DNA of 44,643 nt from Verrucomicrobiota bacterium. Lineage in GTDB: Bacteria > Auribacterota > JABMQX01 > JAFGEW01. The notes under the pieces were generated by a model that was given only the letters and a program-made list of their open reading frames with translations, did no database searches and had not been told where the DNA came from. The DNA lies in the NCBI GenBank assembly GCA_016931415.1, contig JAFGEW010000083.1:1-44643 (forward strand), given 5' to 3'. The position numbers and the translations under genes were made by a program. Positions within the stretch are counted from its first letter, which is position 1. Each line of letters starts with the position of its first letter. Shown here one piece after another: positions 10,536-31,123 of the stretch.

Positions 10536-10553
10536 CAAACCACCTTGAGCATC

Positions 10554-11435
10554 TCACGCCACCTTCAGCACTTCGGCCGCGACGAGGGCGTCAAGCTGCC
10601 AGCCGCCGAGGACATCCTCGGCCACGAGGGTCGTCATCAGCGCGCCGACCTGACGGCAACCGCGGTGCCAGTTCTCCTGGTGGCGGGCGAACGCTTCGCG
10701 GTAGCGCTTCTGCGCCACGGCGTCGAGAAACACCTCCATCATCTCGTCGGACTCGGAATCCACGAGGCGGATGTTGCCGCGTTCGGGCGGCTCGGCATCG
10801 GCCTTCGCGACCACCTGCACCACAACGACGGCTGACGCGCCTTCGGCGAGGCGCTGCAGTGTGTGCAGCGGGTCATCGAGCCAGAACAGGTCGCTGAGAA
10901 ACACGCGGATCGCGCGCGGTCTCCACGCGGGCGAAAGGCGGCGGAACGATTCCGTCACATTGTCGCGATGATCGAACTCGATCCCTTCCCACACCGACGG
11001 GCGGTCGGTGCCGTTGCCGATCTTCTCGCATCCGCCGCGCGCGAGCCAGCCGCAGTGCGAGTAGCCCGCGTTCGAGGCTGCCGCGGCGAACATGGCGGCC
11101 AAGCCGAGCGTCGCGCGCGCCTTGTCCGTCTCGTCGAGCGCCATCGAGCGCGAGCCGTCGATCAGGATGTCGAGGTGCGGGCTCACCTCCTCGCGGTAGA
11201 GCTTCACCGTGAGCCGGTCGCTGCGCGCGTAGGCGCTCCAGTCGATGCGGCGCAGGTCGTCGCCCGGCTGATACTCGCGGTGATCCATAAACTCGAGCGA
11301 GCTACCGGGCCGGTTGCTCAGATGCCCGCCACTCGCCCCGAACGGCGCATTCGGCGGCACCGAGAGCGCATAGCGCATGCCCGCCCGCTCGCCGTCCATC
11401 AAGTATGTCCGGTACGCTTCATTCATAGACCACAT
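10554..11435 (-). CDS. DUF58 domain protein (VWA-like)
   Basis: The 293-residue protein carries the DUF58 signature in order: SNRPGSSLEF, REYQPGDDLRRIDW, then a VWA-like strand with the metal-site motif DGSRSM. There is no transmembrane segment. DUF58 proteins are nearly always paired with MoxR AAA ATPases, and the MoxR gene lies upstream in this operon. The start overlaps the preceding permease gene: ATG codons at 11435 and 11426 give 17- or 8-base overlaps; neither has a strong ribosome binding site, which fits translational coupling. A second DUF58 gene lies at 43758. Confidence 0.88.
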   Translation of the reverse strand: MWSMNEAYRTYLMDGERAGMRYALSVPPNAPFGASGGHLSNRPGSSLEFMDHREYQPGDDLRRIDWSAYARSDRLTVKLYREEVSPHLDILIDGSRSMALDETDKARATLGLAAMFAAAASNAGYSHCGWLARGGCEKIGNGTDRPSVWEGIEFDHRDNVTESFRRLSPAWRPRAIRVFLSDLFWLDDPLHTLQRLAEGASAVVVVQVVAKADAEPPERGNIRLVDSESDEMMEVFLDAVAQKRYREAFARHQENWHRGCRQVGALMTTLVAEDVLGGWQLDALVAAEVLKVA

Positions 11436-12993: not shown

Positions 12994-13057
12994 CACGACC
13001 GCCTCGCAGCCACGGCAGCGCCGCGTGCGCAAGTCTCCGTGCTGTAGTCAATGCCGC

Positions 13058-16152: not shown

Positions 16153-16182
16153 GTCACTTCACTCCACCACCGAACGCCCCGC

Positions 16183-17730
16183 TCACGAAGGCTCGGCCTC
16201 CGCCTCGACGGGCGCCTCCACAACAGCCGGACTCGCATCGACCGCCTGCCCATGTGCAGCGGCATGCCGGATCCGGGCAAGCGGCTTGAAGGCACCCACC
16301 TGCCGCCACAGCCGCGGCAGCGCGAACATGAACGCGGCTGTCGCCCACAGCAGCGAGAACGTCAGCGCCACAGCGCGATAGTCCTCGTCAAAAACAAGCA
16401 TCGGCGTCCCGAGCGCCCACAAGGACGATGTCCCCCGGTCGCCGAACGGGTCCAACTCGAACAGATGAGCGCCGAGGGGGGGCAGAAACGCCAGCGCCGC
16501 TATGCACAATGCCAGCATCCACGTCTGCCCCGTGTTCGTCCGCCGGAATAAGCTGCGCTGTAGAAGATAGCCTGTCATCGCGTAGGCGAGGGCATATGTC
16601 GCCATGCCGAGCAGTTCCTGCGTCGCCTCATCCAGCTCGACTGCAGGATACCTCATCATGTAAGTGGTTGTGCGCAGGTGGTGCCAGGCAAGCAACGTCA
16701 ACGCGATCATGAGGCACGACCAGACAAGGCCACCGGCCGAACCGGTGTAGAACACGAACGCGAACGGGCGAAGCAACGGTGAGCGTGGGATCGCGCGGGC
16801 GACGCGCGGCCCGACCTGGTCCCGTTCGCTCACGGCGACGAGCAATCCGCAGGAAAGCACGAAGACACAGAAGGTCGCCCACGCACGCGCCAGATGGAAC
16901 AGACCAAGTGTGAAGTAGACAGCGAGCGCCGTGAGCAGCCAGGCGATCGTCACGTACACCCGAACAGGCAAGATGCGGTTGGCCGATGGCGGACTCATAA
17001 GCGTCACCGACGCGAGGAACAAGAAAACCGTGACCATCAGTGCGAACGTAGCCAGAACACTACACACCTCCCAGACTTCGCGCATCATCAGCCCCCCACC
17101 GTAGTCGATGAAGGCGCGCGCCAAGCGCACGACATACAAGAGCACGACAAACGTCACACCAAGCCAGACCAGCCCGAGCAGGCCGCGCAGCAGGTTGCTC
17201 GCCGGCACGCACGCGAGAAAGACCGTGCATGCGAGTGAGAGCGCGCTCAGCGCAAGACCAACGCCGAGCAGGAGAAAGATGACCGACATGTCGATACCGC
17301 GGAGCAGGTACGTCAGTGTCAGGAACGGCGCACACGCGCTATAGATGAGCACGATGAGGATTAGGCCAGCCGAGAACTTGCCCCAGACGATCGCACGCGG
17401 TCGCAGCGCCGTGGCGAACAACAGATCGGCATGCGCGCCGCTGCGCTCGGCCATGAGCCGCCCGCCGCAGTAGGCCGGCACAAGCCCCACGCACGTGCCA
17501 AGCAGAATCCCGTATAGCACGATGAACACGCCGCCGCCGATCCCTTCGGAGTCATAGCCGTACTGCCCGCGGTCGGAGGCGAGCGCCATCGTCGTCACGA
17601 GCAACCCGAGCAGAAACAGCAGCAGCAGCCCCGCGATCAGCCGCGCCTGCACGGCTTGGCGCAGCTCCTTGACTGCGATCGGGTTGACCCAATCGTCGAG
17701 CTTGCGGGCGATGGCGCCGACTGCTCTCAC
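16183..17730 (-). CDS. ABC-2-type permease paralogue 1 of 4
   Basis: About 515 residues, polytopic. NPIAVKELR is at residues 16-24 after KLDDWV, followed by a membrane helix (IAGLLLLFLLGLLVTTMAL) and the shared blocks APFLTLTYLLRGIDMS, NRILPVRVYVTIAW and FYTGSAGGLVW. The C-terminal tail is acidic (VVEAPVEAEAEPS). The GTG start at 17730 overlaps the ATPase stop as GTGA and has a GGGGGAGG ribosome binding site inside the ATPase gene, so a longer upstream extension is rejected. Direct coupling to the ATPase makes this the core permease of the exporter. Confidence 0.84.
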   Translation of the reverse strand: MRAVGAIARKLDDWVNPIAVKELRQAVQARLIAGLLLLFLLGLLVTTMALASDRGQYGYDSEGIGGGVFIVLYGILLGTCVGLVPAYCGGRLMAERSGAHADLLFATALRPRAIVWGKFSAGLILIVLIYSACAPFLTLTYLLRGIDMSVIFLLLGVGLALSALSLACTVFLACVPASNLLRGLLGLVWLGVTFVVLLYVVRLARAFIDYGGGLMMREVWEVCSVLATFALMVTVFLFLASVTLMSPPSANRILPVRVYVTIAWLLTALAVYFTLGLFHLARAWATFCVFVLSCGLLVAVSERDQVGPRVARAIPRSPLLRPFAFVFYTGSAGGLVWSCLMIALTLLAWHHLRTTTYMMRYPAVELDEATQELLGMATYALAYAMTGYLLQRSLFRRTNTGQTWMLALCIAALAFLPPLGAHLFELDPFGDRGTSSLWALGTPMLVFDEDYRAVALTFSLLWATAAFMFALPRLWRQVGAFKPLARIRHAAAHGQAVDASPAVVEAPVEAEAEPS

Positions 17731-18656
17731 TGCACCTCCCCCTTGGTGACCTTCATGAAGATGTCCTCGAGGTCGTCGCGGTGGTGGGTGAACTCGGCAA
17801 TCTGGAAGCCTTTCTGCACGACGGTGCCGAGCAGTGCGGCCGCGGCGTCCTCGGCGCCGTCGAGCTCGATCTCGACCTCCTCGCCGGCGATGCGCGCGTT
17901 CTCGACGTGTGGCATCTGGAGCAACTCCTTGAACAGCTCGTCGAGGCGGTTCACGGGCCGGATGCGCACCATGCGCCGGGAGCTCGCCTGCACGTGCAGC
18001 TCGGAGAGCTTGCCCGAGCCGAGGATCTTGCCCTGCTCGATGATGACCGCGCCGTGGCACATTTCGGAGAGCTCGGTCAGGATGTGCGAGCTGATGAGAA
18101 TCGCCTTCTGCTGCGCGGCGAGCACCTTGAGCAGCTCGCGCAGCTCCACGCGTGCGCGCGGATCGAGCCCCGCGGCCGGTTCGTCGAGCACGAGCACGGG
18201 CGGATCGTGCACAAGCGCCCGGGCCAGGTTGACGCGCTGCTTCATCCCCTTCGAGAGCGCCTTGAGAAACTTCTCGCGCAGCCCTGTGAGCTTTGTGAAT
18301 CCCTCGACGCCCTCGACGACCTCACGCCGCTCGACGCCCTTGATGCCGTAGGCACGTGCGAAGAAGTCGAGGTACTCGTGCACGGTCATGTCGCTGTGTG
18401 TCGGCAGCGTGTCGGGCACGAAGCCGATCAGGCGCCGCGCCTTCTCCGGGTCCTCGGTCACCGAGATGCCGTTCAGGAAGGCCTCGCCCGACGTCGGCTC
18501 GTCCAGCGTGGCCAGGATGCGCATTGTCGTCGTCTTGCCTGCGCCGTTCGGGCCGACGAAGCCGAAGACCTGGCCCGACTCGAACGAGAACGAGATGTCG
18601 TCAACGGCCTTCGTCTTGCCGAAGTAGCGTCTCAGGTTGCGGACCTCAACCCTCAT
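17727..18656 (-). CDS. ABC transporter ATP-binding protein (ABC-2 exporter type)
   Basis: The 309-residue nucleotide-binding subunit has Walker A GPNGAGKT at 35-42, the LSKGMKQ signature at 134-140, Walker B VLVLDEP at 154-160 and an H-loop in ISSHILTEL. The last ~90 residues form the C-terminal domain typical of gliding/NosF/CcmA-like exporters. It powers the membrane proteins encoded directly downstream, the first of which overlaps it by four bases. Its own start overlaps the end of the upstream gene by 11 bases. In similar clusters this ATPase accompanies gliding/polysaccharide-type amidotransferase-like membrane proteins; the substrate here cannot be read from sequence. Confidence 0.95.
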   Translation of the reverse strand: MRVEVRNLRRYFGKTKAVDDISFSFESGQVFGFVGPNGAGKTTTMRILATLDEPTSGEAFLNGISVTEDPEKARRLIGFVPDTLPTHSDMTVHEYLDFFARAYGIKGVERREVVEGVEGFTKLTGLREKFLKALSKGMKQRVNLARALVHDPPVLVLDEPAAGLDPRARVELRELLKVLAAQQKAILISSHILTELSEMCHGAVIIEQGKILGSGKLSELHVQASSRRMVRIRPVNRLDELFKELLQMPHVENARIAGEEVEIELDGAEDAAAALLGTVVQKGFQIAEFTHHRDDLEDIFMKVTKGEVQ

Positions 18657-20517
18657 CGGAGTCCTCCCCGAGAATGCCGTAGATCACGGACTTGTAGTCC
18701 TTCGTCTTTGCGTTGCGCAGGCCGGGCTCGATGAACACCAAGTCGTCAACCACAGCGATGTAGCAGCCGGGCATGAGAACCTGGGCAGGCGCGCTCTCGA
18801 ACGAAACCATGCTCGGGAGCCAGTCCTGAACGTACGCCTTCCTGAGACCTTCGACGGGCAAGCCCCGGACAATCCTCTGCGACGGCGCCAGCCGTGCTTG
18901 GGCCCCGGCGGCGATGTCGCTTCCCGAGTAGATCGTGCCATCCGGGGCCGCATACCAGAGTCGGCGGATGTCGGCGCCCAGACCGTTGACAACGACAGGC
19001 GTGCCGTCGGTCTCCATACTCACAGTGAGCCGTTCGCGCCGCATCTCACTCGCCCGCACGATGAAGTGCACCGGCACACGCGCGCTCACCCAGCCGTTGG
19101 CCAGATGCTGGTCCTCGGTCCAGTCGATGTCGCGCGGGCGGCCGCGGCCCCGGTCATACGAGCGGTAGCCGTAGCCGTAACCTCCCCCGCCCTCGCCGAT
19201 CTGTGGCGTCAACTCGGTGTCGGCGCTGAAGTGCAGCCCGTCTCGCGGCGTGACCGGCGAGTAGAAAGCCGCCCAGCCGACCGTCGTGGCGCGGTGCGAA
19301 GCTTGGTCGAGAACCGTCAGCGTCGCGATCCGCGCCCGGCCGCTCCAGCCCTCGGCGACGGCCGCGTAGACAGTCACAGCCGTGCATGTCAGCAGCGAGA
19401 TCGCCGGCACGGTCCAGAGCAGCCAGATGCGCCGCTTCATCCGGCTGAGCACGATCAGGTTGACCGGCCCGATGGCGACGACGAACAGCACCATGAGCAC
19501 CATGAGACCCTTGACCGGCGTGCGCAATCCCTCGACGACGGGGAAGTGGTCGTTGGCTCCCTCGACGCTCTCCATCGAGCGGAACGGCTCGTACGTCTCG
19601 GACACGGCGTCGCGAAGCACGCGCCACTTGTCGCTGCTCCATCCTCGCGCCGACTGATCGGGGTCCGTCACGAGCATCACGCCAAACCCGGCAAAGGTGA
19701 CGGTCCAGTCGCCCTGCACCGTTGTGCGCGCGCGCCACGTTTCCGGCATGTCGGCGGGCCCGAGCACCGCAAGCGTGCCGCCACACTCGACATACTGCCG
19801 GAGAGCGGCCTTGACCGGCGCCGGCGCATCGCGCCACTCGCTGCCGCTCATGACCACAGCGTCGCAGGCCGAGTGCCCGAGCCAGCTTGTGCTCCACTCC
19901 GCCACGGGCGACTCGGCGCGCGGAAACTGGGCGTCGTTCGTGGAGCCGCCATAGTAGGATGAGCGCCCAGAAGACCGCCCACCCGTCTCGAACGCGGGGC
20001 GCGCCTCGTTCTCGAAGTCGCCCGGGGCGCCCCGGCTCACCAGCACCATCGTGCTCTCGTCATAGGCCGAGCCGTAGCCGCCCCAGCCGCCGATGCGCCG
20101 GGAAATCCCCTCGATCGGCACCTGCTCGCGTTGGCGCCTCCCATCAATCGAAACGCCTAACCCGTATCCATCGCACGGCAGCGCCGGCTGGAACAGCGAC
20201 ACCCTCGTCGCCGAGGCCGGCCCGACGCTCACCGTGCGCGTCATCCGCCGGATCGAGTCGCCCCCGCCGACCGAGGCCTCAGGGAGACGCAGCGCGACGG
20301 TATGACTCTTGTTCGGCGAGGTGTTCGATATCGTGACCTCGTACTCGAGGTAGCCATGGGCCCACCGGATGTCGGCGGGCTGGCGCGCGCTGATCGTGAC
20401 GTCGCCGTACTGTGTTGTCGCGCCCGCGCGCGGCGACACGAAGGCCGCTCCGCACAGCGCGCCCACGACGACGACGAGCCGGAACAGCGCCGGCAGGGAT
20501 CGGGTGTCGTTACGCAT
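18646..20517 (-). CDS. exported membrane protein with amidotransferase-like domain
   Basis: 623 residues. There is an N-terminal signal sequence (LFRLVVVVGALCGAAFVSP, cleavage likely near residue 33), then a periplasmic beta-rich region. A ThuA/DUF4159-like amidotransferase fold lies around 215-300 (CDAVVMSGSEW, CGGTLAVLG). Two transmembrane helices (about 335-357 and 365-388) follow, and another Gly/Tyr-rich soluble domain. GAGGTGAGCG precedes the ATG; the start overlaps the MoxR stop by eight bases and the end overlaps the ABC ATPase gene by 11. It is likely a periplasmic partner of the ABC exporter or of the VWA complex. I do not recognise a named family. Confidence 0.78.
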   Translation of the reverse strand: MRNDTRSLPALFRLVVVVGALCGAAFVSPRAGATTQYGDVTISARQPADIRWAHGYLEYEVTISNTSPNKSHTVALRLPEASVGGGDSIRRMTRTVSVGPASATRVSLFQPALPCDGYGLGVSIDGRRQREQVPIEGISRRIGGWGGYGSAYDESTMVLVSRGAPGDFENEARPAFETGGRSSGRSSYYGGSTNDAQFPRAESPVAEWSTSWLGHSACDAVVMSGSEWRDAPAPVKAALRQYVECGGTLAVLGPADMPETWRARTTVQGDWTVTFAGFGVMLVTDPDQSARGWSSDKWRVLRDAVSETYEPFRSMESVEGANDHFPVVEGLRTPVKGLMVLMVLFVVAIGPVNLIVLSRMKRRIWLLWTVPAISLLTCTAVTVYAAVAEGWSGRARIATLTVLDQASHRATTVGWAAFYSPVTPRDGLHFSADTELTPQIGEGGGGYGYGYRSYDRGRGRPRDIDWTEDQHLANGWVSARVPVHFIVRASEMRRERLTVSMETDGTPVVVNGLGADIRRLWYAAPDGTIYSGSDIAAGAQARLAPSQRIVRGLPVEGLRKAYVQDWLPSMVSFESAPAQVLMPGCYIAVVDDLVFIEPGLRNAKTKDYKSVIYGILGEDSDEG

Positions 20518-21568
20518 CGCTCACCTCTGCGATCTCGAATTCCTTCGGCAGGTTCAGCCCCGCTTCGTCGATCTCGGCCAACAGCCCGTCCACGACGCGG
20601 AAGGCATCGACGCGGTCGAAGCGCGCCTTGTAGTTGAGCACGATCCGGTGATTGAGCACGGCAGGCGCGACAACCTTCACGTCGCCAAAACCGACCGCCG
20701 GGCGCGCGGCAAGCAGCGCGTGCGCTCGCGCCGCCTCGGCCATGGCGATGGCCGCCCGTGGCGATGCGCCGTAAGCGACGTAAGCGCGCACGTCGTCGGT
20801 CGCCTCGGCGCTCGTGCCGTGCGTGGCGGCCACGAGGCGCGAGATGTAGCGCGACACCGGCTTGGGCAGAAACACGCGGTCCATCACGGCGAAAACCCGG
20901 TTAAGCTCCTCGGCCGTCATCGTCCAGGTCGGGGTCGGCGGCTCGCCCCGGCGCCGGGTCGAGATGATGTTGTCGAGCACGTCGACGGGCACATCGGTCA
21001 CCACAAGCTTGAAGAGGAAGCGGTCGAGCTGCGCCTCGGGCAGCGGGTAGGTGCCCTCGAGCTCGATCGGATTCTGCGACGCGAGCACGAAGAACGGCTC
21101 GGGCAGCATGCGCGTCGTGCCGAGCAGCGTCACCGACCGTTCCTGCATCGCCTCGAGCAGGGCCGACTGCGTCTTGGGCGAGGCGCGGTTGATCTCGTCG
21201 GCAAGCAGGATGTTGGTGAACACCGGCCCCGGCTGGAACGTCATCTCGCGCCCACCGTCGCCGCGCTCCTGCAGGATGTGCGTGCCCAGGATGTCGCCCG
21301 GCATGAGGTCGGGCGTGAACTGCACCCGGTTGAACCCGAGGTTCATAAGCTGCCCGAGCGCCTTGACGAGCGCCGTCTTGCCGACGCCGGGCACGCCCTC
21401 AAGCAGGATGTGGCCGCGGCTCAGAATGCCTGCGACCACCATGCGGTGCAGAGCCGGCCGACCGAGCAGGATACGGTCGAGCTGCTCGAGGACCCGGTCC
21501 GTCAATCCGACAGCGGACCGGATCTCATCAGGCTGCAGGACGGTGTCAGGCTGATCACTCGTTCCCAT
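20510..21568 (-). CDS. MoxR family AAA+ ATPase
   Basis: The 352-residue cytosolic ATPase has Walker A GVPGVGKT at 58-65, Walker B LLADEINRA at 121-129 followed by SPKTQSALLEAMQE, sensor motif SQNPIE and the C-terminal lid domain. MoxR ATPases act as chaperones that remodel or activate VWA-domain proteins, and this operon encodes DUF58 and two large VWA membrane proteins downstream, which fits. The ATG has GGAGGAG five bases upstream. A 108-base gap separates it from the preceding coiled-coil gene; I see no clear promoter there. Confidence 0.95.
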   Translation of the reverse strand: MGTSDQPDTVLQPDEIRSAVGLTDRVLEQLDRILLGRPALHRMVVAGILSRGHILLEGVPGVGKTALVKALGQLMNLGFNRVQFTPDLMPGDILGTHILQERGDGGREMTFQPGPVFTNILLADEINRASPKTQSALLEAMQERSVTLLGTTRMLPEPFFVLASQNPIELEGTYPLPEAQLDRFLFKLVVTDVPVDVLDNIISTRRRGEPPTPTWTMTAEELNRVFAVMDRVFLPKPVSRYISRLVAATHGTSAEATDDVRAYVAYGASPRAAIAMAEAARAHALLAARPAVGFGDVKVVAPAVLNHRIVLNYKARFDRVDAFRVVDGLLAEIDEAGLNLPKEFEIAEVSDA

Positions 21569-21676
21569 AGCTCCTCCAAACCCTGTGCGGCGGCGATGCA
21601 GACGGGACGCCCAAGCTGACTGAAAGTCATCCGCCCGCCGCCTGGTCCATCAAGTGCAGACGTGAAGAGACAAGCG

Positions 21677-23134
21677 CTAGTCGCGCGCAAAATACCTTCG
21701 CACCGTGCCCCGGTGCCGGGGCAGGACAGTCTCGGTGTGCGCCGAGCCGCGCCCAGGCGTGGCCGCGGCGCCTTCGAGCGCGCCTGGCGTCGAGGATTCG
21801 CCTGCGCCCGCCCGCGGCGCGCCCTTACTGACCGCTTCGAGCATACTGCTCTTCAACGCGGCGAGATCGCTCGGCGGGAGGACCTGGGGGTCATATTCGA
21901 ATCCCTCCTCGCCGGTCTCGTCCTTCCACGTGAGCGGCGCCGGTCCGGGGCCGCGCGAGACACCACCTGAGCCCCCCTCCGTGCCGCCGCCGGGCTCCGT
22001 CCCGTCCGGGCCGAAGCCGTCACAGCCTTGCGACCGCGCCCACTGGTCCATCATGTCGCCGATGGAAGTGTTCCCGGCGTTCTCTCGAAGAAAGTCGGCA
22101 AGGCCCTGCATGTCGCACTGCCCGACTTGGCTGTTCAGGTCGAGTTGCTCCGCCGTGATAAGGCCTTTGTCGGCCAGCTTCTGGAGCTGCTGCGCGATGT
22201 CGCCTTTGGCCTCGCGAAGGCACTGGGCCAACTCCTCGAGTTGCTCGGACGTGAGCTGCTTCGACTCGGCGAGCTTCTGGAGATCCTTGCGCTCGAGCCG
22301 GCGTTTGACCAGCTCGTTCTCTTGCGCCGCCTCGTCGACCATCTCCGAGAGCTCCTCCATGGCCGCCGTCGCCAATTCAGGCGAGATCGCCTCCCCAGCC
22401 TCGGTCAGCGCGTCGGCCAGAGCCTCCGCCTTGGTCAGCTTCTCGGTATCCTGGATCGCCTCTTCTGCCGCCTCGGCCGCCGCCCGCTCAGGCACCTCCT
22501 TCAGGTGATCCAGGGCTTCCCACGTCTTTACCGGATCGCGCCCCGAGGCTTCGTTGCGCAGCTCGTCGAGTTTCTGTGTGAGCTCGCACGCCTTTGCCTC
22601 GTCGAGGATCCTCTCTTCCTTGAGCGTCTCGATCTGGGCTTTGAGCGCATTGATCTCCTCACCAATCTCGAGCACGTTCGGCGGCAAGGGCGCCGCAAAT
22701 CGCTGAGGGATGACAAACCCGACGAGCACAAACACCACGGCGGCCGCGAGCAGCAGCCACGGACGATCGTCACGCCAACGAACGGCCGGCTGGACGAGGC
22801 GGCAAATCCGCGGCCGCCACGCCCCGAGTCCAGTCTCGGCCTCGGCCATGAGGAGGCCTTCACACCCGCTGGTCTTGTCGAGAAGGGCCCGCACGCTGGT
22901 GGGTGACGGAACACGCCGCCGCGCCAAAAGATGGGCTACACCGAGCGCCGGCACGATGCCTGCCAATCCCCACAACAGCGGCCCCCGCGCCATACGGAAC
23001 GCGGACCGCATCACAAGAACACACGTCCCCCATGCCAATGCCCAGGCAGTCAGACACGCCAGCAAGCGCCTGAGGAATAGCAGCCCAGCCACCCTATACG
23101 TGAACGAGCGAATGATCCGTTCATGCGCGTCCAT
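21677..23134 (-). CDS. membrane-anchored coiled-coil protein, first gene of the MoxR/ABC operon
   Basis: 485 residues. Three hydrophobic helices (about 15-35, 51-70 and 126-145) are followed by a long heptad-rich charged region (about 155-350; EINALKAQIETLKEE) predicted to be coiled coil. Then come a Gly-rich low-complexity stretch and a basic end, LPRHRGTVRRYFARD. The same arrangement, ending in a VRRYF-like tail, is common in proteins preceding MoxR genes in related clusters (DUF4175-like); that assignment is from memory of the architecture. The start has GGAGGTG about five bases upstream. Probably a scaffold in the inner membrane for the VWA/MoxR complex. Confidence 0.75.
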   Translation of the reverse strand: MDAHERIIRSFTYRVAGLLFLRRLLACLTAWALAWGTCVLVMRSAFRMARGPLLWGLAGIVPALGVAHLLARRRVPSPTSVRALLDKTSGCEGLLMAEAETGLGAWRPRICRLVQPAVRWRDDRPWLLLAAAVVFVLVGFVIPQRFAAPLPPNVLEIGEEINALKAQIETLKEERILDEAKACELTQKLDELRNEASGRDPVKTWEALDHLKEVPERAAAEAAEEAIQDTEKLTKAEALADALTEAGEAISPELATAAMEELSEMVDEAAQENELVKRRLERKDLQKLAESKQLTSEQLEELAQCLREAKGDIAQQLQKLADKGLITAEQLDLNSQVGQCDMQGLADFLRENAGNTSIGDMMDQWARSQGCDGFGPDGTEPGGGTEGGSGGVSRGPGPAPLTWKDETGEEGFEYDPQVLPPSDLAALKSSMLEAVSKGAPRAGAGESSTPGALEGAAATPGRGSAHTETVLPRHRGTVRRYFARD

Positions 23135-23667: not shown

Positions 23668-24069
23668 ATGGACTGCAGAAACCATCCTGGAGTACCGGCC
23701 CTGGATCGTTGCGCCGGGTGCGCCGAGGCGTTCTGCGGCAATTGCCTCGTCGAGCTGCACGGCCGCAGGTACTGCGGCTCATGCAAGACCATGGCCGTGC
23801 AGGCCCCGCCGCCCATAGACGCGGCCATGATTCCCTGCAAGGAAGCCAGTGACGCGCTGAAGTACGCCATCATTGGCATCTTCTGTCTCGGAATCATCCT
23901 TGGCCCCGTGGCGATCTCGAAGGCCCTTCAAGCGAGGAAGATGATGGAGACCAATCCGCGTCTCTCCGGATCGGGCAAAGCCTCGGCCGCCATCTTCATC
24001 GGGATCGTGGCGATCATCCTGTGGGCTTTCGGCGTCTACTACAGAGTCTCAACGCTCGACCAGCGGTGA
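23668..24069 (+). CDS. B-box-like zinc-finger membrane protein
   Basis: 133 residues. The N-terminal 40 residues form a B-box-like zinc finger: C3, H6, C15, C18, C23, C26, H31, C36, C39, with the CxxHP start and final YCGSC typical of bacterial versions. Two transmembrane helices follow (about 66-86 and 107-125) with a short cytosolic loop (LQARKMMETNPRLSGSGKA) as in small DUF4190-like proteins. GGAGAAAGGT precedes the ATG. It is the first gene of the ubiquitin-like operon and is 11 bases from a second B-box protein. In eukaryotes B-boxes accompany RING domains in TRIM-type E3s; a similar adaptor role here is inference. Confidence 0.75.
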   Translation: MDCRNHPGVPALDRCAGCAEAFCGNCLVELHGRRYCGSCKTMAVQAPPPIDAAMIPCKEASDALKYAIIGIFCLGIILGPVAISKALQARKMMETNPRLSGSGKASAAIFIGIVAIILWAFGVYYRVSTLDQR

Positions 24070-24080
24070 GGTTGCCGGAA

Positions 24081-24854
24081 ATGGAGATGCTGTGTCCAGA
24101 ATGCCGTGGACCGTTGACGACGGAGGACGGTAAGAGCGCCCGTTGCACCCTGCACGGCGGCGAGTATCGGATTCTTTTCCAGAAACACGCCGCCCCGCTG
24201 GTGCACGGCCCGACTGCTACAGCTCAGTCTTGTCCGCGCCACCCCGGCAACTTGGCTGAGCACACCTGCGCCGCGTGCGGTGCGCTTGTCTGCTCAGTCT
24301 GCGCCTTCCCTCAAGCCAACGCCACGTATCTGTGCCCGAGCTGTGTTGGCCGGACGGCTCCCGCGCTGCTAGGGCGCGCGGTACCTCAGCAGCAGTTCCA
24401 TGCGGCAATGTGCGTCATGCATCCGACAGTCCCGGCTATGGCGCGGTGCAGCATGTGCGGCGCCCCGATCTGTTCGACATGCGACTTCCAATTCCCGGGC
24501 ATGGTCCATGTCTGCCCGAAGTGCGTTCTGAATCCCAAATCGCGGTTGTCCCCAAAGCGAAGAAGCCCCTTGGCCGTATCGTACGTGCTCGCCATCTGGT
24601 GCACGCTCGGGCTGGCCGTGCTCTTCAGCGGCCTGCTCGCAGAACAAGTGGAGACGGAGAAGGACCTCCAGGCCCTCGGGGTGGTCATATGGTGGCTGAT
24701 CATGGTACCTTCCTTGATCGGGACGGCCTTGAGCGTCAGCACGTTCGATCGCCGCCTCGGCAACCCGCCTTCCGTATGGGTTGCGGCAATCTGGAACGGC
24801 TTGATACTCGGAGCACTCGCCATCACGACAATCATCGGAAACCTGACCCGATAG
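24081..24854 (+). CDS. membrane protein with zinc ribbon and two B-box-like zinc fingers
   Basis: 257 residues from the ATG at 24081, which has GAGG about 10 bases upstream; the frame also opens at 24021 but that would overlap the previous gene. An N-terminal zinc-ribbon-like segment (C5, C8, C22, H25) is followed by a B-box-like finger from C51 to C88 (CPRHP, CAAC, CSVC, CPSC) and a second from C111 to C148 (CVMHP, CSMC, CSTC, CPKC). Three transmembrane helices follow from about residue 165. The tandem fingers look like a duplication of the unit in the previous gene. Such fingers bind protein partners; here they would face the cytosol beside the membrane. Confidence 0.72.
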   Translation: MEMLCPECRGPLTTEDGKSARCTLHGGEYRILFQKHAAPLVHGPTATAQSCPRHPGNLAEHTCAACGALVCSVCAFPQANATYLCPSCVGRTAPALLGRAVPQQQFHAAMCVMHPTVPAMARCSMCGAPICSTCDFQFPGMVHVCPKCVLNPKSRLSPKRRSPLAVSYVLAIWCTLGLAVLFSGLLAEQVETEKDLQALGVVIWWLIMVPSLIGTALSVSTFDRRLGNPPSVWVAAIWNGLILGALAITTIIGNLTR

Positions 24855-24926
24855 AGGGGGCAGGCGTGATCACCGGCCACTCGGCCGGGCATCACGCGGA
24901 CTCCGCACCGTGGAGAATGAAACGGA

Positions 24927-25199
24927 ATGGCTCTTAAGATCTCGGCGAATTCAGCATTCACCCATCGCTACCTGAAACTCCGCTCATGGGGCGTCACCTT
25001 CCGTGAGACGGCCGCCTTTGGCGGCGTCCACAAGTTTCCGTTCAGTCAGATCGAGTACATTCTCATGTCCCCTAAGGCGGTCCTTTCGTTCCAGGTGGGA
25101 CAGGAGGTGTTCAGCATCCCGACGAAGCCGAAGAAAAAGAAACACATCGAGACAATCGAGGCTCTCCTGCGCGAGGTTTCGCGTGCAGCCGGAAGGTAA
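24927..25199 (+). CDS. small PH-like/GRAM-like protein
   Basis: 90 residues, soluble, predicted mostly beta with a C-terminal helix (ETIEALLREVSRA) after a basic patch (PTKPKKKK). The pattern GVTFRE...FPFSQIEYILMS...LSFQVGQEVFSI resembles bacterial PH-like domains, in which strands are followed by one terminal helix. GGAG lies about 9 bases before the ATG. It sits between the B-box membrane proteins and the Ubl gene with gaps of about 73 bases on each side. Lipid or protein binding at the membrane is a reasonable inference, not shown. Confidence 0.62.
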   Translation: MALKISANSAFTHRYLKLRSWGVTFRETAAFGGVHKFPFSQIEYILMSPKAVLSFQVGQEVFSIPTKPKKKKHIETIEALLREVSRAAGR

Positions 25200-25273
25200 G
25201 GGGTGCCGCATCGCCAGGCTGTACAGAAATCGAGGACCTGGCTCATCCGCCCCAGAATCTGTGGAGACCGCTC

Positions 25274-25561
25274 ATGGCAATGATCCTCCTGCGAGTATTG
25301 GATGTCTCGGGCAGCCGGGCCTACGACGTCGAGGCGCCTGACGACGTCCCGGTAAACCGGTTGCTCGTGCTCCTCGTCGAGCGCATGAACCTGCCCCTCA
25401 ACAGCCCCGACGGACAAATCATGAGCTACAAGCTCCATCACCGCCGTAACGGCACACAACTTCTCGACAGCCAGACGCTGGCCGAATCCAACGTTCGGCA
25501 TGGTGACGAGCTGCGCCTGCACCCTGAGATTACCGCCGGCGGCCATTCCAGGGAGCCCTGA
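25274..25561 (+). CDS. ubiquitin-like protein with Gly-Gly and a cleavable-looking tail
   Basis: 95 residues. Residues 2-83 have a beta-grasp profile resembling YukD/EsaB-type ubiquitin-like proteins: strand ILLRVLDVSG, strand AYDVEAPDDV, helix PVNRLLVLLVERMNL, strand MSYKLHHRR, NGTQLLDSQTLAESNVRHGD and a final strand ELRLHP. It ends ITAGG then HSREP, so Gly89-Gly90 is followed by five residues. Ubiquitin precursors have the same layout and must be trimmed before E1 can adenylate the terminal Gly. The next gene encodes an E1 two bases after this stop, and a JAMM protease follows. GGAG lies about 8 bases before the ATG. An unconjugated YukD-like role is less likely in this context. Confidence 0.85.
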   Translation: MAMILLRVLDVSGSRAYDVEAPDDVPVNRLLVLLVERMNLPLNSPDGQIMSYKLHHRRNGTQLLDSQTLAESNVRHGDELRLHPEITAGGHSREP

Positions 25562-25563
25562 GC

Positions 25564-26730
25564 GTGGCGCGTGAGCCGGCTATCTCGCTGAATGAGGGCC
25601 GCTTTGCCCGGCTCGAGGCAATCGAGTGGTGGAACCAGCCGCTGCTCAAGGCCGCCTGTGTGCTCGTCGTCGGCGCCGGGGCCTTGGGCAACGAGGTCAT
25701 CAAGAACCTTGCCCTCCTTGGCGTGGGCCGTCTCGTCATCGTCGACATGGACCGCGTCGAGCTGAGCAACCTGAGCCGGTCGGTGCTGTTCTCCGAGGCC
25801 GACGAGGGCCTGCCGAAGGCGGAATGCGCGGCTCGAAGAGCGAGGGACATCTACCCCGGACTGGACGCGATCCCCCTTGTCGGCAACGTCCTGGCGGACG
25901 TCGGGCTGGGCTTCTTCAGGTCGGCACAAGTGGTCGTTGGCGCGCTCGATAACCGGGAGGCCCGTGTCTTTGTCAACAGCGTCTGCGCGCGGGTCGGCCG
26001 CCCCTTGATCGACGGCGGCATCGAGGTGCTCAACGGCATCGTGCGAGGCTTCGCGCCTCCGACGACAGCATGCTACGAATGCACCATGAGCCAGACCGAT
26101 TGGGACCTACTCAACAAGCGGCGCTCGTGCTCGCTGCTTGCCCGGCGCGCTCTCAATGAAGGCGGCACGCCCACCACGCCGACGACCGCCTCGGTCGTCG
26201 GCGCGCTCCAGGCCCAGGAAGTCGTCAAGCATCTCCACGGCATGGATGCGCTGCTCGGTCGAGGGTTCATCTTCGAGGGCTTGGGCCACACGTCGTATAC
26301 GGTGAGCTATCCGATCCTCCCCGAGTGCGGTTGGCACGAGCAGCCTGCTCCCATAGAGGCGATGGCCGATCTCGACTCGGGTACACCGCTCCGGCTCATC
26401 TGGAACCGGGCGGCCGAGCGGCTGGGCGGCATCGAGGCCCTTGACTTGGCCCGCGAGATCGTCGAGCGGCTCGAATGCCCGTCGTGCAGGCGGAGCGAGC
26501 GGGTTCTCCAGCCGGCCGAACGGCTCCGCGAAGACCAGCTCGTCTGCCCGGGCTGCGGCCAGGAGTGCGCGCCGGTTTTCATCCATTCACTCGGCGAAGC
26601 CTCCGAGTTACTTGATCTGTCGGCACGCGCGATCGGACTGCCCGAGTGGGACATTGTATGGGCGAGGCGGGATACCAGATGCCTCGGCATCGAACTGGCA
26701 GGCGACAGCCCGGCACAACGCAGGACTTGA
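25564..26730 (+). CDS. E1-like ubiquitin-activating enzyme (ThiF/MoeB/UBA fold) with zinc-ribbon C-terminus
   Basis: 388 residues, GTG start two bases after the Ubl stop. The adenylation domain has GAGALG at 37-42, the DMDRVELSNLSR block (Asp61, Asp63, Arg72), Lys85 and ALDN at 128-131: all core ATP-binding residues of the E1 family. CYEC at 170-173 begins a zinc site, but only one further Cys (C255) stands where MoeB/UBA5 have a second CxxC. Cys189 (KRRSCSLL), 14 residues before TPTTPTTAS, lies where UBA5-type E1s keep the catalytic Cys and is the best thioester candidate. A C-terminal module with CPSC (305-308) and CPGCGQEC (328-335) forms a four-Cys ribbon, possibly for E2 or Ubl docking. 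It would adenylate the Ubl Gly-Gly end and pass it to the E2 at 29993. Confidence 0.9.
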   Translation: MAREPAISLNEGRFARLEAIEWWNQPLLKAACVLVVGAGALGNEVIKNLALLGVGRLVIVDMDRVELSNLSRSVLFSEADEGLPKAECAARRARDIYPGLDAIPLVGNVLADVGLGFFRSAQVVVGALDNREARVFVNSVCARVGRPLIDGGIEVLNGIVRGFAPPTTACYECTMSQTDWDLLNKRRSCSLLARRALNEGGTPTTPTTASVVGALQAQEVVKHLHGMDALLGRGFIFEGLGHTSYTVSYPILPECGWHEQPAPIEAMADLDSGTPLRLIWNRAAERLGGIEALDLAREIVERLECPSCRRSERVLQPAERLREDQLVCPGCGQECAPVFIHSLGEASELLDLSARAIGLPEWDIVWARRDTRCLGIELAGDSPAQRRT

Positions 26731-26764
26731 CGCCTATCTGGAACGGGGAGGCGGTGTAGAGCGG

Positions 26765-27910
26765 ATGGCAAGGCACAAGAACCGGGGTAACAACAGACCA
26801 GCAAAGAAGAATGCCGGCGCTCCGTCTGACGACGCGGACAGAGATCCAAATGCTGAAGGCGCGGCTCCGGACGAGTCTGAAGAGCTAACCGTGTGCAGTT
26901 GGACGGACGTCAAGGGCGCGGTGCGACAAACGTTCCCTGGACCTCGCGATGCGGATGTCCCATTCCGTGTCGCGTTCGACCGGCGGCCCCATGCCGAGTT
27001 CATCGGCCACGCCAAGGAGTCGCTCGACACCGAAGTGTGCGGCGTGCTCGTCGGCGACCTGTGCAAAGACGATGAAGGGCTCTTCGCCCATGTGCGCGAG
27101 ATTATCCGGGGCGAAGCGGCACGCGAAGGCGGCGGCCACGTCACGTTTACACACGAGACGTGGGAGCAGATCCACAAGCGGCTTGAAACCGACTTCCCGC
27201 AGATGCAGATCGTGGGGTGGTACCACTCGCATCCCGGCTTCGGTGTCGAGTTCTCCAAGATGGACCTGTTCATCCAGGAGAACTTCTTCGCCGCCCCGGG
27301 CCAGCTCGCCCTCGTCATGGACCCGCTCAGCGGCAAGGAAGCCATGTGTGTCAGCGGGCCGGACGGCCTGGTAAGGATCTCGCGCTTCTGGATCGAAGGC
27401 CGCGAACAGCGTTGCGAGCTCCCAACCGAAGAGGCCAAGCACAAGACTCCGAACGGCTCGGTCAGCTCGAACGACAGTGACAAGGCGCTCGAGGCCCTTC
27501 AACGCAAGCTCAACCAACTCATCCAGACGCTCGACGAGCAATATGCGGGCATCTACCGGCTCGTTCTCAGTCTCGGCATGATTATCGCCGTTGCCGTCAT
27601 CGCATGGATCGGCTTCGGCATCTACCGCAGCATCTTCGCACCGCAGGAGGAGCCGCCCCGACTGCGGCAGTACGTACCTGTCGCGATCCAGGTCGGCGAC
27701 GAGACCGTGATGGTGGGCGTGGGCATCGTTGACTGGAAGGTGCCGCCTGAGCTTGATCCCGCGCTTGAGCTCAAGGAGCTGAAAGCCCGGATGGACAAGA
27801 AGAAGGCTTCCACCCAGAAGCAGGATGGGACCACGCCCAGGGAACAGAGAGAGGCCCCGTCCCAGGAAGGGCCCCGGGAATCCAACGGGGAAACGACGAC
27901 GGACCAGTGA
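26765..27910 (+). CDS. membrane-anchored JAMM/JAB (MPN+) isopeptidase
   Basis: 381 residues from the ATG at 26765; the frame extends upstream but overlaps the E1 gene. A disordered basic/acidic N-terminus of about 50 residues is followed by a JAB domain (about 67-210) with the full zinc motif: Glu90 (EVCGVL), H154-S-H156-P, Ser164 and Asp167. A coiled stretch (ALEALQRKLNQLIQTLDEQ) leads to a transmembrane helix at about 255-277, then a small domain and a charged tail. The protease side and the N-terminus are probably cytosolic. Family knowledge: JAMM proteases cut isopeptide bonds or Ubl precursors; here it could remove the HSREP tail of the Ubl and deconjugate products. Confidence 0.92.
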   Translation: MARHKNRGNNRPAKKNAGAPSDDADRDPNAEGAAPDESEELTVCSWTDVKGAVRQTFPGPRDADVPFRVAFDRRPHAEFIGHAKESLDTEVCGVLVGDLCKDDEGLFAHVREIIRGEAAREGGGHVTFTHETWEQIHKRLETDFPQMQIVGWYHSHPGFGVEFSKMDLFIQENFFAAPGQLALVMDPLSGKEAMCVSGPDGLVRISRFWIEGREQRCELPTEEAKHKTPNGSVSSNDSDKALEALQRKLNQLIQTLDEQYAGIYRLVLSLGMIIAVAVIAWIGFGIYRSIFAPQEEPPRLRQYVPVAIQVGDETVMVGVGIVDWKVPPELDPALELKELKARMDKKKASTQKQDGTTPREQREAPSQEGPRESNGETTTDQ

Positions 27911-27926
27911 GACAGGAGTCGAAGCG

Positions 27927-29297
27927 ATGATCCGCATCTCGCGCCAGGAGGCGATGGGTGCCCACGTAGACGATCTTCTCAATCGCCAGATGAGCCTACG
28001 CGGTGAAATGGGCGTTCGAGCGGACCGCGGCCGGAAATGGTACTACCAGAACTGGTTCGTCTTCATGGTGGCTGGCGCGCTCGCCGCCGTAGCCGCTTGG
28101 GCCATCATCGAGCCGATCTTCGACGACTACGCCTACGTGCAGGGCACGATCGAGAGCGTCAGCGAGACGGCCGATCTCCCCGAAGGCCTCGAGTGGAGCT
28201 TCGAGGGCGTGTCTTCAATTCGAGTCAAGGACCTCGACATCGTGCTCGGCCCAGGAACCAAGGAGTTGCAGGCCGACGGCAACAGGCAACCGTTCGATCT
28301 CGCCTCGCTTCGACCCGGTCAGGAGGTCGGCCTCTACCTCCTGACCGATCAGATCGTTGGCGAGTACAGCGCCCTGACCGTGCACATAGGCGTCGTCGTG
28401 GTTCTCTCCCCGCCGGCCGACCCGCCTAAGAAGGCTTCGCTCTCTCTCGAGGAGCAGCAGAGAAGGAAGATGGCCGGCGGTCTTCTCCTGTTCCCGCTCG
28501 TCGCCAGCTTCGTCGGCTTGGGGATCGGCAGCATAGACGGTATCGTGTGCCGCGCCTACCGGCGCGCCCTGCTTTCGGGACTGCTCGGGCTGTTGATCGG
28601 CTTCTTCGGCGGATTCGTCACCAACATCATCGCCAACATGGTCTACAGCCCTCTGGCCGGGCTGGCGATGCGCCAGGCCGAGCCGCAATTCATCACCACC
28701 GTGAGTTCCTTGAGCGCCCTGGGTTTTCTTCTCCAGATGGCCAGTCGAGGCATCAGTTGGGCGTTGGCCGGCGTGGCGATGGGTTTGGCCCAGGGCATCG
28801 CGTTGCGCTCGAAGCGCCTGCTGCTCTATGGGTTCATTGGCGGTGTCGTCGGGGGTTTGATTGGGGGGCTGTTTTTCGATCCGATCGATGTCCTTGCAGG
28901 CTCGGAAGGAACGAGCGGCCACTGGAGCCGCGTCATCGGCCTAGCCGTTATCGGCGCATGCGTGGGTGCCATGATCGGGATCGTCGAGCTGCTCGCCCGT
29001 GATGCCTGGCTGCGGATGACGGCCGGTCCGCTCGCCGGCAAGGAGTTCCTCATCTTCAAGGACATCATGAAGATCGGCTCGTCGCCGAGATCGGACATCT
29101 ACCTTTTCAACGACGACACCGTGACTCAGCACCACGCCACAATCCGCGCCGTCAGCGACCGCTGCGAGATTGAGGCCGTACACGAGGCTTGGCCCGTCTT
29201 CCTCAATGGCCGGGTTATCAGGCATGCCCGGTTGCGCCACGGCGATCAGATCACGCTTGGCCGCACCATGTTCGTATTCCAGGAACAGAGGGGTTAG
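27927..29297 (+). CDS. multi-pass membrane protein with C-terminal FHA domain
   Basis: 456 residues from the ATG at 27927, with AGGAG eight bases upstream. A soluble N-terminus of 38 residues is followed by a helix (about 43-62), an extracytoplasmic beta region (70-160), then about six helices rich in Gly (about 172-346; SGLLGLLIGFFGGFVTN, GFIGGVVGGLIGGLFF). A cytosolic FHA domain spans about 365-456: KIGSSPRSD at 382-390, QHHATI (401-406) and FLNGRVI. FHA domains bind phosphothreonine peptides, so this subunit may recruit kinase-modified substrates or partners to the membrane. Three bases separate it from the RING gene. No kinase gene is in the window. Confidence 0.88.
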   Translation: MIRISRQEAMGAHVDDLLNRQMSLRGEMGVRADRGRKWYYQNWFVFMVAGALAAVAAWAIIEPIFDDYAYVQGTIESVSETADLPEGLEWSFEGVSSIRVKDLDIVLGPGTKELQADGNRQPFDLASLRPGQEVGLYLLTDQIVGEYSALTVHIGVVVVLSPPADPPKKASLSLEEQQRRKMAGGLLLFPLVASFVGLGIGSIDGIVCRAYRRALLSGLLGLLIGFFGGFVTNIIANMVYSPLAGLAMRQAEPQFITTVSSLSALGFLLQMASRGISWALAGVAMGLAQGIALRSKRLLLYGFIGGVVGGLIGGLFFDPIDVLAGSEGTSGHWSRVIGLAVIGACVGAMIGIVELLARDAWLRMTAGPLAGKEFLIFKDIMKIGSSPRSDIYLFNDDTVTQHHATIRAVSDRCEIEAVHEAWPVFLNGRVIRHARLRHGDQITLGRTMFVFQEQRG

Positions 29298-29300
29298 CAC

Positions 29301-29903
29301 ATGGATCAGAGCCCACCGGAGGCGCCGGCGCCCACCGCGGTACCGACCTGCGCCATCTGCCTGTGCCCGGCGCAGCCGGAGGAGTCCCTCGTCCAGTGCG
29401 GCTCGTGCAGCGCCATCTACCACGCCGATTGTTGGCAGGCAAACGGCGGGTGTGCCATCTACGGCTGTCCCCAGGTCCCACCGACGGAGGCGTTGACGTC
29501 CGTCGAGGTCCCGACGTCGTACTGGGGCATGGAGCACAAGAGATGCCCGGCGTGCGGCAGCACCATCCTTGCCGCCGCGATGCGATGCAGGCATTGCGGC
29601 AACACGTTCGACTCCGCACGGCCGGAGCATCCCACGGAATTCTCCGTGCGACGGGAACGGCAGAAACGGCTTCCTGCAACACGGAAGCAGGTCGTGTGGT
29701 TGTTCATATGCAGCGCCATTCCCTTTCTGGCGCCTTTTGCAGCCGTGTTCGGGTTGATATGGTACGTGCGCCACCGCACCGACCTGAAGGCACTTCCCAC
29801 TATGTACTCGGCGCTAGCCAAGGTCGCGCTTGCCGTCGCCATGGGCCAGACGGCCTTCGGGATTTGTGTCGCCATGCTTTGGAACGCCGCTCGATCCGGG
29901 TGA
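29301..29903 (+). CDS. membrane-anchored RING-like zinc protein (candidate E3)
   Basis: 200 residues. The N-terminal treble-clef site has C17, C20, C33, C36, H41, C44, C51, C56 in a C-x2-C, C-x2-C, H-x2-CW, C-x4-C pattern, matching prokaryotic RING families (HADCW...GGC..GC). A second four-Cys ribbon follows at C82, C85, C96, C99. Two hydrophobic segments (about 131-155 and 165-195) anchor it with both zinc modules likely cytosolic. The start is three bases after the FHA gene and the E2 gene follows, so the E3-like assignment rests on fold plus context. Bacterial RING-like domains of this kind also occur away from conjugation genes, so activity must be shown. Confidence 0.82.
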   Translation: MDQSPPEAPAPTAVPTCAICLCPAQPEESLVQCGSCSAIYHADCWQANGGCAIYGCPQVPPTEALTSVEVPTSYWGMEHKRCPACGSTILAAAMRCRHCGNTFDSARPEHPTEFSVRRERQKRLPATRKQVVWLFICSAIPFLAPFAAVFGLIWYVRHRTDLKALPTMYSALAKVALAVAMGQTAFGICVAMLWNAARSG

Positions 29904-29992
29904 TCGCAGAGACAAAGGGACACACATGACCGGCGCTTCGCGCGAACGGCCAAGCCGACGCCGGAAAGCACACAACGGGAGAACACGAGCAG

Positions 29993-30457
29993 ATGACCCC
30001 GCGACTCCGTAGACTGGATGCCGACTACAGGCAGGTCTACACGCTACTGGCCGATCACCCGTATATCCGCCTCATCGGCGCGGAGGGGAATCCCCCAGAG
30101 AAGTATGCCTTCGAGTTCCACGTCACGGGCCTCGTCCCGCAACAGGATGACTCGCTCGTGATGGCACGCGCTCATCGGGCCGAGGTCTTCCTGCCGCTCG
30201 ACTATCCGCGCCGTCCCCCGTTCTGCCGCATGACGACCCCCGTCTTCCACCCGAACATAGATCCCACGAAGATCTGTATCGGCGATCACTGGTCGGCAGG
30301 CCAGTCGCTGCCCCAGCTCATCGTGCGCATCGCTGAGATGATATGCTACCAGAGCTACAACGTGAAAAGCCCGCTCAACGCAAAGGCCGCCGCTTGGGCC
30401 GAACAGAACCTGTCTGTCCTGCCCCTGGAGAAGGCCGACCTTGGAGTGGGGCTGTGA
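29993..30457 (+). CDS. E2-like ubiquitin-conjugating enzyme (UBC fold)
   Basis: 154 residues, nearly the exact length of a minimal eukaryotic E2. In order: an N-terminal helix (RRLDADYRQVYTLL), the beta meander with FLPLDYPRRPPFCRM (the YP.xPP hallmark), HPN at 86-88, and seven residues later the candidate catalytic Cys95 in TKICIGDHW. Then come W100-S101, the crossover helix (LPQLIVRIAEMICY) and the SPLN turn at 126-129 before the last helix. All landmark positions of active E2s are present, including the HPN Asn needed for isopeptide transfer, so it is unlikely to be an inactive variant. GGGAG lies about 12 bases upstream. Its stop overlaps the DUF2752 gene. Confidence 0.92.
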   Translation: MTPRLRRLDADYRQVYTLLADHPYIRLIGAEGNPPEKYAFEFHVTGLVPQQDDSLVMARAHRAEVFLPLDYPRRPPFCRMTTPVFHPNIDPTKICIGDHWSAGQSLPQLIVRIAEMICYQSYNVKSPLNAKAAAWAEQNLSVLPLEKADLGVGL

Positions 30458-30840
30458 TCGACCGCCGCGCCAGGCTGTGGCGTCTCACGTTGGGCCTCCT
30501 GCTCCTCGCCGCTTTCCCTGCGGCATGGCTCATCAGGCGTCTCGTCGGAGAGACCAGTATCTCGCCTTGCGTCTTCCGCACTGTGACCGGCAGGCCATGC
30601 CCGTTCTGTGGACTCACGCGCGCCTTCGCTAACGCTGTCGAGTGTAATTGGCGCGCCGCGTTCAGCGCTCATCCGCTCTGGTGGCTTGCGGCAACCGTCG
30701 TGGCTGGTGCCGGTCTCATCTGCCTCCTCGATGCAGCAAGGAACACCAACAACCTCCAGCGTCTAACCCGGTTCTGGAACGCCTACGGCTGGCATCTCAT
30801 CGTTGTTCTCATCATCGTTGCCGTGCTCTCGCTTCTCTGA
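30454..30840 (+). CDS. DUF2752 membrane protein
   Basis: About 128 residues. The GTG at 30454 overlaps the E2 stop as GTGA with GGAG upstream; longer upstream versions lie inside the E2 gene. It has the DUF2752 signature CPFCGLTRAF in an extracytoplasmic or membrane-edge loop, flanked by about four hydrophobic helices (LGLLLLAAFPAAWLI, WWLAATVVAGAGLICLL, LIVVLIIVAVLSLL). The biochemical function of DUF2752 is not known. Coupled translation with the E2 indicates that it belongs to the pathway. Last gene of the operon; no strong hairpin follows the stop. Confidence 0.85.
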   Translation: MIDRRARLWRLTLGLLLLAAFPAAWLIRRLVGETSISPCVFRTVTGRPCPFCGLTRAFANAVECNWRAAFSAHPLWWLAATVVAGAGLICLLDAARNTNNLQRLTRFWNAYGWHLIVVLIIVAVLSLL

Positions 30841-31049
30841 CCCGGCTCTCGCCACTCCACGCCGATCACCCATGCTCCCCTGCCGCCAAGCCGCCGCGGA
30901 TCTCCACACAGCCACGATCGAGCCCAACTTGCCGCCCACGACGGCCGGCCAATTCGACCCGACCCTTTTTTTCGTTGTTCCAGATGCCGGGCGCGCACGT
31001 GCAATCACGTCAGGACAGGGATCCACAGAAAACGCGTGAGAAGAGGAAG

Positions 31050-31123
31050 TACGCCCGGAAGGAATCGAACCTTCAACCAACGGATTAAGAGTCCGCTGCT
31101 CTACCTGGTTGAGCTACGGGCGC
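31050..31123 (-). tRNA. tRNA-Lys (anticodon CTT)
   Basis: The minus strand folds as a 74-nt cloverleaf without encoded CCA: acceptor GCGCCCG/CGGGCGT (with one G-U pair at position 1), D-arm GCTC..GAGC with GG in the loop, anticodon arm GCGGA/TCCGT around loop CTCTTAA (anticodon CTT), five-base variable loop and T-arm GAAGG-TTCGATT-CCTTC. Its 3' end faces the ubiquitin-like operon about 210 bases away. Confidence 0.96.

Follow-up and report, generated by a model that had tools for sequence, protein, structure and literature searches.

Gene content and conservation of the operon

The contig JAFGEW010000083.1 of a bacterium labelled Verrucomicrobiota (assembly GCA_016931415.1), which was analysed over its whole length of 44,643 nucleotides and is referred to here as the window, contains at positions 23668-30840 an operon of ten plus-strand genes. 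These code for a ubiquitin-like protein (Ubl), an E1, an E2, a RING protein and a JAMM/JAB isopeptidase, together with a set of mostly membrane-bound partners (Table 1). All ten genes of the initial annotation, which had been made from the sequence alone, were recovered in the order in which they were first read, and open reading frames (ORFs) and Pfam domains confirm their strand, coordinates and short spacing; only the start of the DUF2752 gene had to be corrected, to a GTG codon at 30454 that overlaps the E2 stop codon. Eight of the ten proteins score above the curated Pfam cut-off, with matches to B-box (BB2), YukD, ThiF, JAB, FHA, Prok-RING_1, UQ_con and DUF2752. The gaps between the Ubl and E1 genes and between the FHA and RING genes are 2 and 3 bp, respectively, and the E2 and DUF2752 genes overlap by 4 bp. 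As the genes nearly touch or overlap, the layout fits a single transcription unit, which is the expected reading of such an arrangement. Promoter and terminator scans of the operon gave no pattern beyond that of shuffled sequences.

Table 1. Coordinates of the operon genes in the window and of two fusion genes from sister operons (TM, transmembrane).
Feature	Position	Strand	Size and basis
BB1: N-terminal B-box-like zinc finger, DUF4190/CD225-like membrane hairpin	23668..24069	+	133 aa; Pfam matches below cut-off
BB2: 1-2 B-boxes, N-terminal CxxC ribbon, C-terminal TM helices	24081..24854	+	257 aa; Pfam, phmmer
Small PH-like protein	24927..25199	+	90 aa; AlphaFold, Foldseek
Ubl, YukD family	25274..25561	+	95 aa; PF08817
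E1, single ThiF/MoeB-type adenylation domain	25564..26730	+	388 aa; PF00899
JAMM/JAB isopeptidase, one C-terminal TM helix	26765..27910	+	PF01398
FHA-TM: TM1, beta domain, 5 more TM helices, degenerate FHA	27927..29297	+	Pfam FHA, AlphaFold, Foldseek
RING-TM: C4HC3 RING (Prok-RING_1), zinc ribbon, two TM helices	29301..29903	+	PF14446
E2, HPN motif and Cys95 (HPNIDPTKICIGDHW)	29993..30457	+	154 aa; PF00179
DUF2752 small membrane protein, GTG start	30454..30840	+	128 aa; PF10825
RING-TM-protease fusion, sister Ubl operon	L126:4924-6231	-	
RING-TM-protease fusion, sister Ubl operon	L128:13598-14890	+	

GTDB genomes were scanned with an alignment of the window E1 and a relative encoded on a Crinalium plasmid, and the best 80 of 467 E1 relatives were kept, which fall into two tiers. 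Fourteen E1s with 57-72% identity (loci L034-L047) are accompanied by the gene order of the window, BB1-BB2-(PH)-Ubl-E1-JAB-FHA-RING-E2, in which the PH-like gene is often present and which is sometimes followed by DUF2752; some of these 14 loci end at contig edges and one is degenerate. The carriers are labelled Verrucomicrobiota, Planctomycetota, Gemmatimonadota, Myxococcota/Deltaproteobacteria and Riflebacteria, that is, five or more phyla. One of these 14 loci, L043, holds the full operon and lies on a complete chromosome that is not labelled as a bin, Planctomycetes bacterium syqfu (CP087563), which carries two Ubl operons with a membrane FHA protein (FHA class; L043 and L136). Searches with FHA-TM, for which the centre genomes were picked because they carry this protein, returned strong matches at 14 places in 13 of 392 Planctomycetota genomes as well as in 3 of 388 Verrucomicrobiota and 2 of 237 Myxococcota genomes. 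A JAB gene adjoins FHA-TM at 14/14 Planctomycetota places, and Ubl and E1 genes are present as well at the 12 with enough sequence; the new loci from Verrucomicrobiota and Myxococcota carry this gene set too, again beside JAB. In the E1 tree, the FHA-class operons are monophyletic (31 rows, 100/100), as is the B-box clade of the window (15 rows, 100/100), with one exception, L081 from Nitrospirota, which has a weaker FHA match and lies outside the E1 clade. The membrane FHA protein is dedicated to the tagging cascade. Conserved co-occurrence in relatives had been set beforehand as the test of the operon, and it is found at the 14 further loci and throughout the FHA class. We are highly confident that the ten parts belong together as a conserved cassette.

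No flanking gene family is common to more than two loci, and the unit is therefore bordered by BB1 on one side and E2/DUF2752 on the other, set in unrelated surroundings. As the flanking genes differ between loci, the operon is self-contained and probably mobile, and horizontal spread is the simplest reading of its distribution. No E2 was found in the other 43 of 44 genomes of the window's phylum. E2 searches found none in viral contigs and one match in plasmids, the distant Crinalium relative. This locus on the mobilizable cyanobacterial plasmid pCRI9333.03 of Crinalium epipsammum (L033, 7248-10725) codes for a distant E1, E2 and JAB and for two small proteins, one of them weakly YukD-like.

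A tRNA-Lys(CTT) gene at 31049-31123 (minus strand), 209 bp beyond the last gene of the operon, is a possible insertion site. An island or prophage context was considered but rejected, as Pfam recognised no integrase among the flanking ORFs tested and the GC content of the operon differs only slightly. Directly upstream, at 5960-23134 on the minus strand, lies a Bat-type membrane cluster with VWA, BatA, DUF58 and MoxR-like genes, which also includes several large proteins without a Pfam match.

Predicted conjugation core and membrane partners

The Ubl gene is adjacent to the E1 gene and codes for the only YukD protein of the genome (PF08817, 49 bits). The initial annotation had assigned it a Gly-Gly end followed by a tail; in the alignment of FHA-class Ubls, Gly-Gly does not hold as the conserved terminus and was rejected. 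The conserved C-terminus LRL(H/Q)PEITAG is followed by a variable tail, GHSREP in the window. The end -PEITAG (or -AEITAG) is found in 31/32 FHA-class operons, and nearly all operons outside this class have -PE(I/V)(V/T)AG. A second glycine occurs in only 6/32 FHA-class Ubls; seven of the 32 stop exactly at AG and the remainder have variable tails. The conserved end is thus Ala-Gly, and the second glycine of the window Ubl is incidental. A tryptic remnant on lysine should then be LHPEITAG, and diGly antibodies or searches would miss such conjugates.

The catalytic landmarks of the remaining core proteins are intact. The E1 (PF00899, 168 bits) contains CxxC, Cys189 within RRSC and a C-terminal zinc ribbon, and RxSC is retained in 30/32 FHA-class operons. 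Its closest solved structures are the adenylation domains of the UBA7, NEDD8 and SUMO E1s. It is the only ThiF-family protein found in the 98.9%-complete window genome, in which no separate ThiF/MoeB was detected. The E2 (PF00179, 50 bits) reads HPNIDPTKICIG with the predicted catalytic Cys95; eukaryotic E2s are its nearest relatives of solved structure (E ~1e-9), and HPN...Cys is intact in 24/25 FHA-class E2s. The JAMM protein (43 bits) has an intact HxHx7SxxD motif, which is kept in 31/31 FHA-class JABs and in 90/90 of all JABs scanned. RING-TM scores 29.9 bits against PF14446 (cut-off 29.1) and 27 bits against UPF0547; the C4HC3 ligand pattern is kept in 26/27 FHA-class operons, and the window protein has two hydrophobic helices. 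The reading of the locus as a complete Ubl/E1/E2/RING/JAMM set with membrane anchors is therefore upheld by domains and motif alignments, and it is very likely that the Ubl is conjugated.

FHA-TM carries its FHA domain (39.7 bits) at the C-terminus, at residues ~375-450. The AlphaFold model, which is of moderate confidence (pLDDT 72), comprises one helix, a beta domain at residues 69-159, five further helices and the C-terminal FHA domain, which Foldseek matches to the FHA domains of GarA and OdhI. The six helices would put the FHA domain in the cytoplasm together with the N-terminus and leave the beta domain extracytoplasmic. In the alignment, the window FHA reads IGSS...TQHH compared with GR...SRRH in GarA, and its relatives mostly have G(S/A/C)S without SxxH. 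The arginine and serine used to read phosphothreonine are therefore lost across the clade, and since these residues are gone, the FHA domain is more likely a phosphate-independent dock. This contradicts any reading of it as a phosphothreonine reader, a function that we reject for the class with the exception of a separate FHA-RING protein at L136. The latter (8682-10043, plus strand) joins a canonical FHA domain (IGR...SRIHA) to TM helices and a RING-like finger in a single polypeptide, and its gene adjoins a degenerate FHA-TM gene; L136 and L043 share one genome.

BB1 matches B-box (16.8-20 bits) and DUF4190 (29 bits) below the cut-offs, and its Cys/His residues are invariant across the 14 loci. 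BB2 matches zf-B_box above the cut-off (28.3 bits) and has phmmer homologues in the 14 loci. The PH-like protein has no Pfam match; its AlphaFold model (pLDDT 89) shows seven strands and a C-terminal helix in a PH/FERM-F3 layout, with weak Foldseek matches to such folds (best E 5e-3, TM-scores 0.5-0.7), and the gene is present in the window and seven other loci of clade A, to which the window belongs. DUF2752 (54 bits) is an optional member, found at the 3' end of the operon in L037, L044, L126, L127, L129 and L134 and inside that of L128.

Sister operons and possible functions

At seven sister loci (L126-L131 and L134), a RING, DUF4190-like helices and a trypsin/HtrA-like protease are joined in one protein, encoded just before E2 and with an intact GNSGG serine motif. 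L133 encodes a protease without a detected RING, and L048 and L144 have a membrane protease gene just upstream of the Ubl gene. BB1 of the window resembles these fusions in that it combines a B-box with DUF4190-type helices, without the protease. CD225 proteins have their N-terminus inside and their C-terminus outside. If DUF4190 adopts this layout, the RING of the sister fusions would lie inside and the protease outside. The fusions are the best hint that the class ties cytoplasmic tagging to the envelope, and they make the tagging of envelope proteins more likely. In one of these operons (L128:14887-15732, plus strand), the E2 has a long Cys-rich, B-box-like C-terminal extension.

We propose that the E1 adenylates the YukD-type Ubl at the terminal glycine of -PEITAG and holds it on Cys189, from which it would be handed to Cys95 of the canonical E2. 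The membrane-anchored C4HC3 RING protein would then put the Ubl on lysines of membrane-associated targets, and the membrane-anchored JAMM protein could both trim tailed Ubl precursors and remove conjugates. FHA-TM would be a likely sensor or scaffold that couples the state of the envelope to JAMM and RING, and the B-box/TM and PH-like proteins probably serve as adaptors to targets or to the membrane. We infer the conjugation, the topology, the targets and the sensing step of this system, and the role of FHA-TM as a sensor is guessed from its architecture. A membrane or envelope role of the operon is plausible, and on balance we favour a reversible attachment of the Ubl to lysines on the cytoplasmic side of the inner membrane, responsive to envelope state. 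We would only tentatively suggest that the operons represent an undescribed class, in which an extracytoplasmic sensor with a phosphate-independent FHA domain (clade A) or a RING-fused HtrA-like protease (sisters) couples envelope state to Ubl conjugation of membrane proteins. If true, such a signal-responsive membrane Ubl class would be the bacterial equivalent of membrane E3 ligases.

Several points weigh against this proposal. Many of the carriers are contigs of metagenome-assembled genomes, and the taxonomic spread may partly reflect mis-binning, although the complete syqfu chromosome has the full operon (L043). L040 (CP070666.1, Gemmatimonadota) has BB1-BB2-Ubl-E1-JAB but lacks FHA, RING and E2 downstream, and no E2 was found anywhere in its genome; some copies may therefore be decaying, rewired or not conjugating. 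The protease of the sister operons is absent from the operon of the window, and the predicted membrane topology is based on hydrophobicity and the moderate AlphaFold model of FHA-TM.

The operon could also be an anti-phage or stress defence module similar to Bil, CBASS-E1E2 or Bub, which would mark an invader or effector protein with the Ubl at the membrane. Its patchy occurrence across phyla, its self-contained borders and the lack of it in the remaining 43 genomes of the phylum to which the window belongs would suit such a role, and E1 and E2 proteins serve defence in Bil (PMC11354881) and type II CBASS (PMC10097602). However, PADLOC models give only generic E1/JAB similarity, no defence genes were recognised beside the operon in the window, the operon contains no killing effector and the E2 is matched by no viral contig and a single plasmid, which makes defence rather unlikely. 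The RING-TM-protease fusions of the seven sister operons point to another possibility, namely that conjugates are passed to a protease for membrane proteolysis, and proteasome-family genes (PF00227) are found in most carrier genomes, that of the window included. Yet PF00227 matches include HslV-type proteins, Escherichia coli and Bacillus subtilis match as well and the genes have no known connection with the operon; moreover, the window operon has no protease, and with a CD225-like DUF4190 the sister protease would lie outside, apart from the conjugates. We regard tagging for proteolysis as quite improbable. The ThiF/MoeB-like architecture of the E1 and its standing as the only ThiF-family protein found in the genome would be compatible with a sulfur-carrier or cofactor pathway instead of conjugation, but an HPN-Cys E2, a RING and an isopeptidase have no role there and are nevertheless kept in relatives, and the closest solved E1 chains are those of UBA7, NEDD8 and SUMO E1s, so that this explanation is hardly credible.

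Relation to known systems

Bacterial operons with a YukD-type Ubl and E1, E2, RING and JAB proteins were predicted computationally by Burroughs, Iyer and Aravind (Burroughs 2011; Mol Biosyst 7:2261), as cited in PMC4197634, which notes such operons in Planctomycetes, Actinobacteria and Acidobacteria. By every computed feature, the operon of the window appears to be a member of this class. The novelty seen in the initial annotation consequently does not extend to the E1/E2/RING/JAB/Ubl core; it holds for the FHA/B-box membrane partners and is confined to this subtype, and the FHA neighbours may already figure in Burroughs 2011. A search of the text of Iyer 2006 (PMC1779556) returned no FHA and a single mention of a RING finger in passing. 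The clade B operons of Planctomycetota (such as L071 from Singulisphaera acidiphila and L052) are similar in their YukD-type Ubl, HPN-Cys E2, JAB and Prok-RING_1, and their E1 belongs to the same subfamily with ~44% identity. They are arranged as Ubl-E2-(JAB)-E1-JAB-(E2)-RINGs without FHA-TM, B-box/TM and PH-like proteins, whereas the window has all three, and the FHA-class E1s form a clade separate from clade B. Clade B operons such as L052, L053, L095 and L108 encode a pair of JABs, a pair of E2s and as many as three RINGs, whose genes surround the YukD-type Ubl and E1 genes.

The compact Ub/E1/E2/RING operon of Caldiarchaeum subterraneum, with a JAMM protein that matures the Ub, was reconstituted in vitro as a cascade (PMC5654768). 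Its Ub matures to Gly-Gly, whereas the YukD-type Ubl of the window has an Ala-Gly end, and the main text of that study mentions no transmembrane parts, in contrast to the membrane anchors, FHA and B-box proteins found here. BilABCD also combines Ubl, E1, E2 and JAB in one operon; however, its four genes include none for a RING, BilA carries two Ubl domains and BilD has an inactive and an active adenylation domain (PMC11354881), compared with one YukD domain in 95 aa, one ThiF domain in 388 aa and a RING in the window. The BilD model matches the window E1 with only 22 bits over a short stretch. Membership in Bil was therefore rejected, as was that in type II CBASS or 6A-E, since E1 and E2 are encoded by separate genes and are not fused.

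The Ubl shares the YukD fold with type VII secretion systems. YukD of these systems is reported not to undergo conjugation (PMC1779556); unlike it, the YukD-type Ubl of the window sits with a full E1-E2-RING-JAMM set. The control of a secretion process, one of the roles first envisaged, finds no support, as the genome contains one YukD and no match to FtsK/EccC or WXG100 was found in the operon proteins or the tested flanking ORFs, no genome-wide search having been made. The FHA proteins of type VII secretion systems are likewise degenerate and membrane-linked.

Taken together, the operon is a well supported conserved unit that is functionally uncharacterised as far as the literature consulted shows. 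As at least one carrier, syqfu, is represented by a complete chromosome without a metagenome-bin label, the role of the operon may be directly testable. To our knowledge, those bacterial systems of Ubl conjugation that have been characterised serve defence, are soluble and lack a RING. A mostly membrane-borne E1-E2-RING-JAMM cascade that is conserved would show RING-based reversible tagging of membrane proteins in bacteria and would offer a compact natural system with which eukaryotic membrane E3 ligases can be compared.

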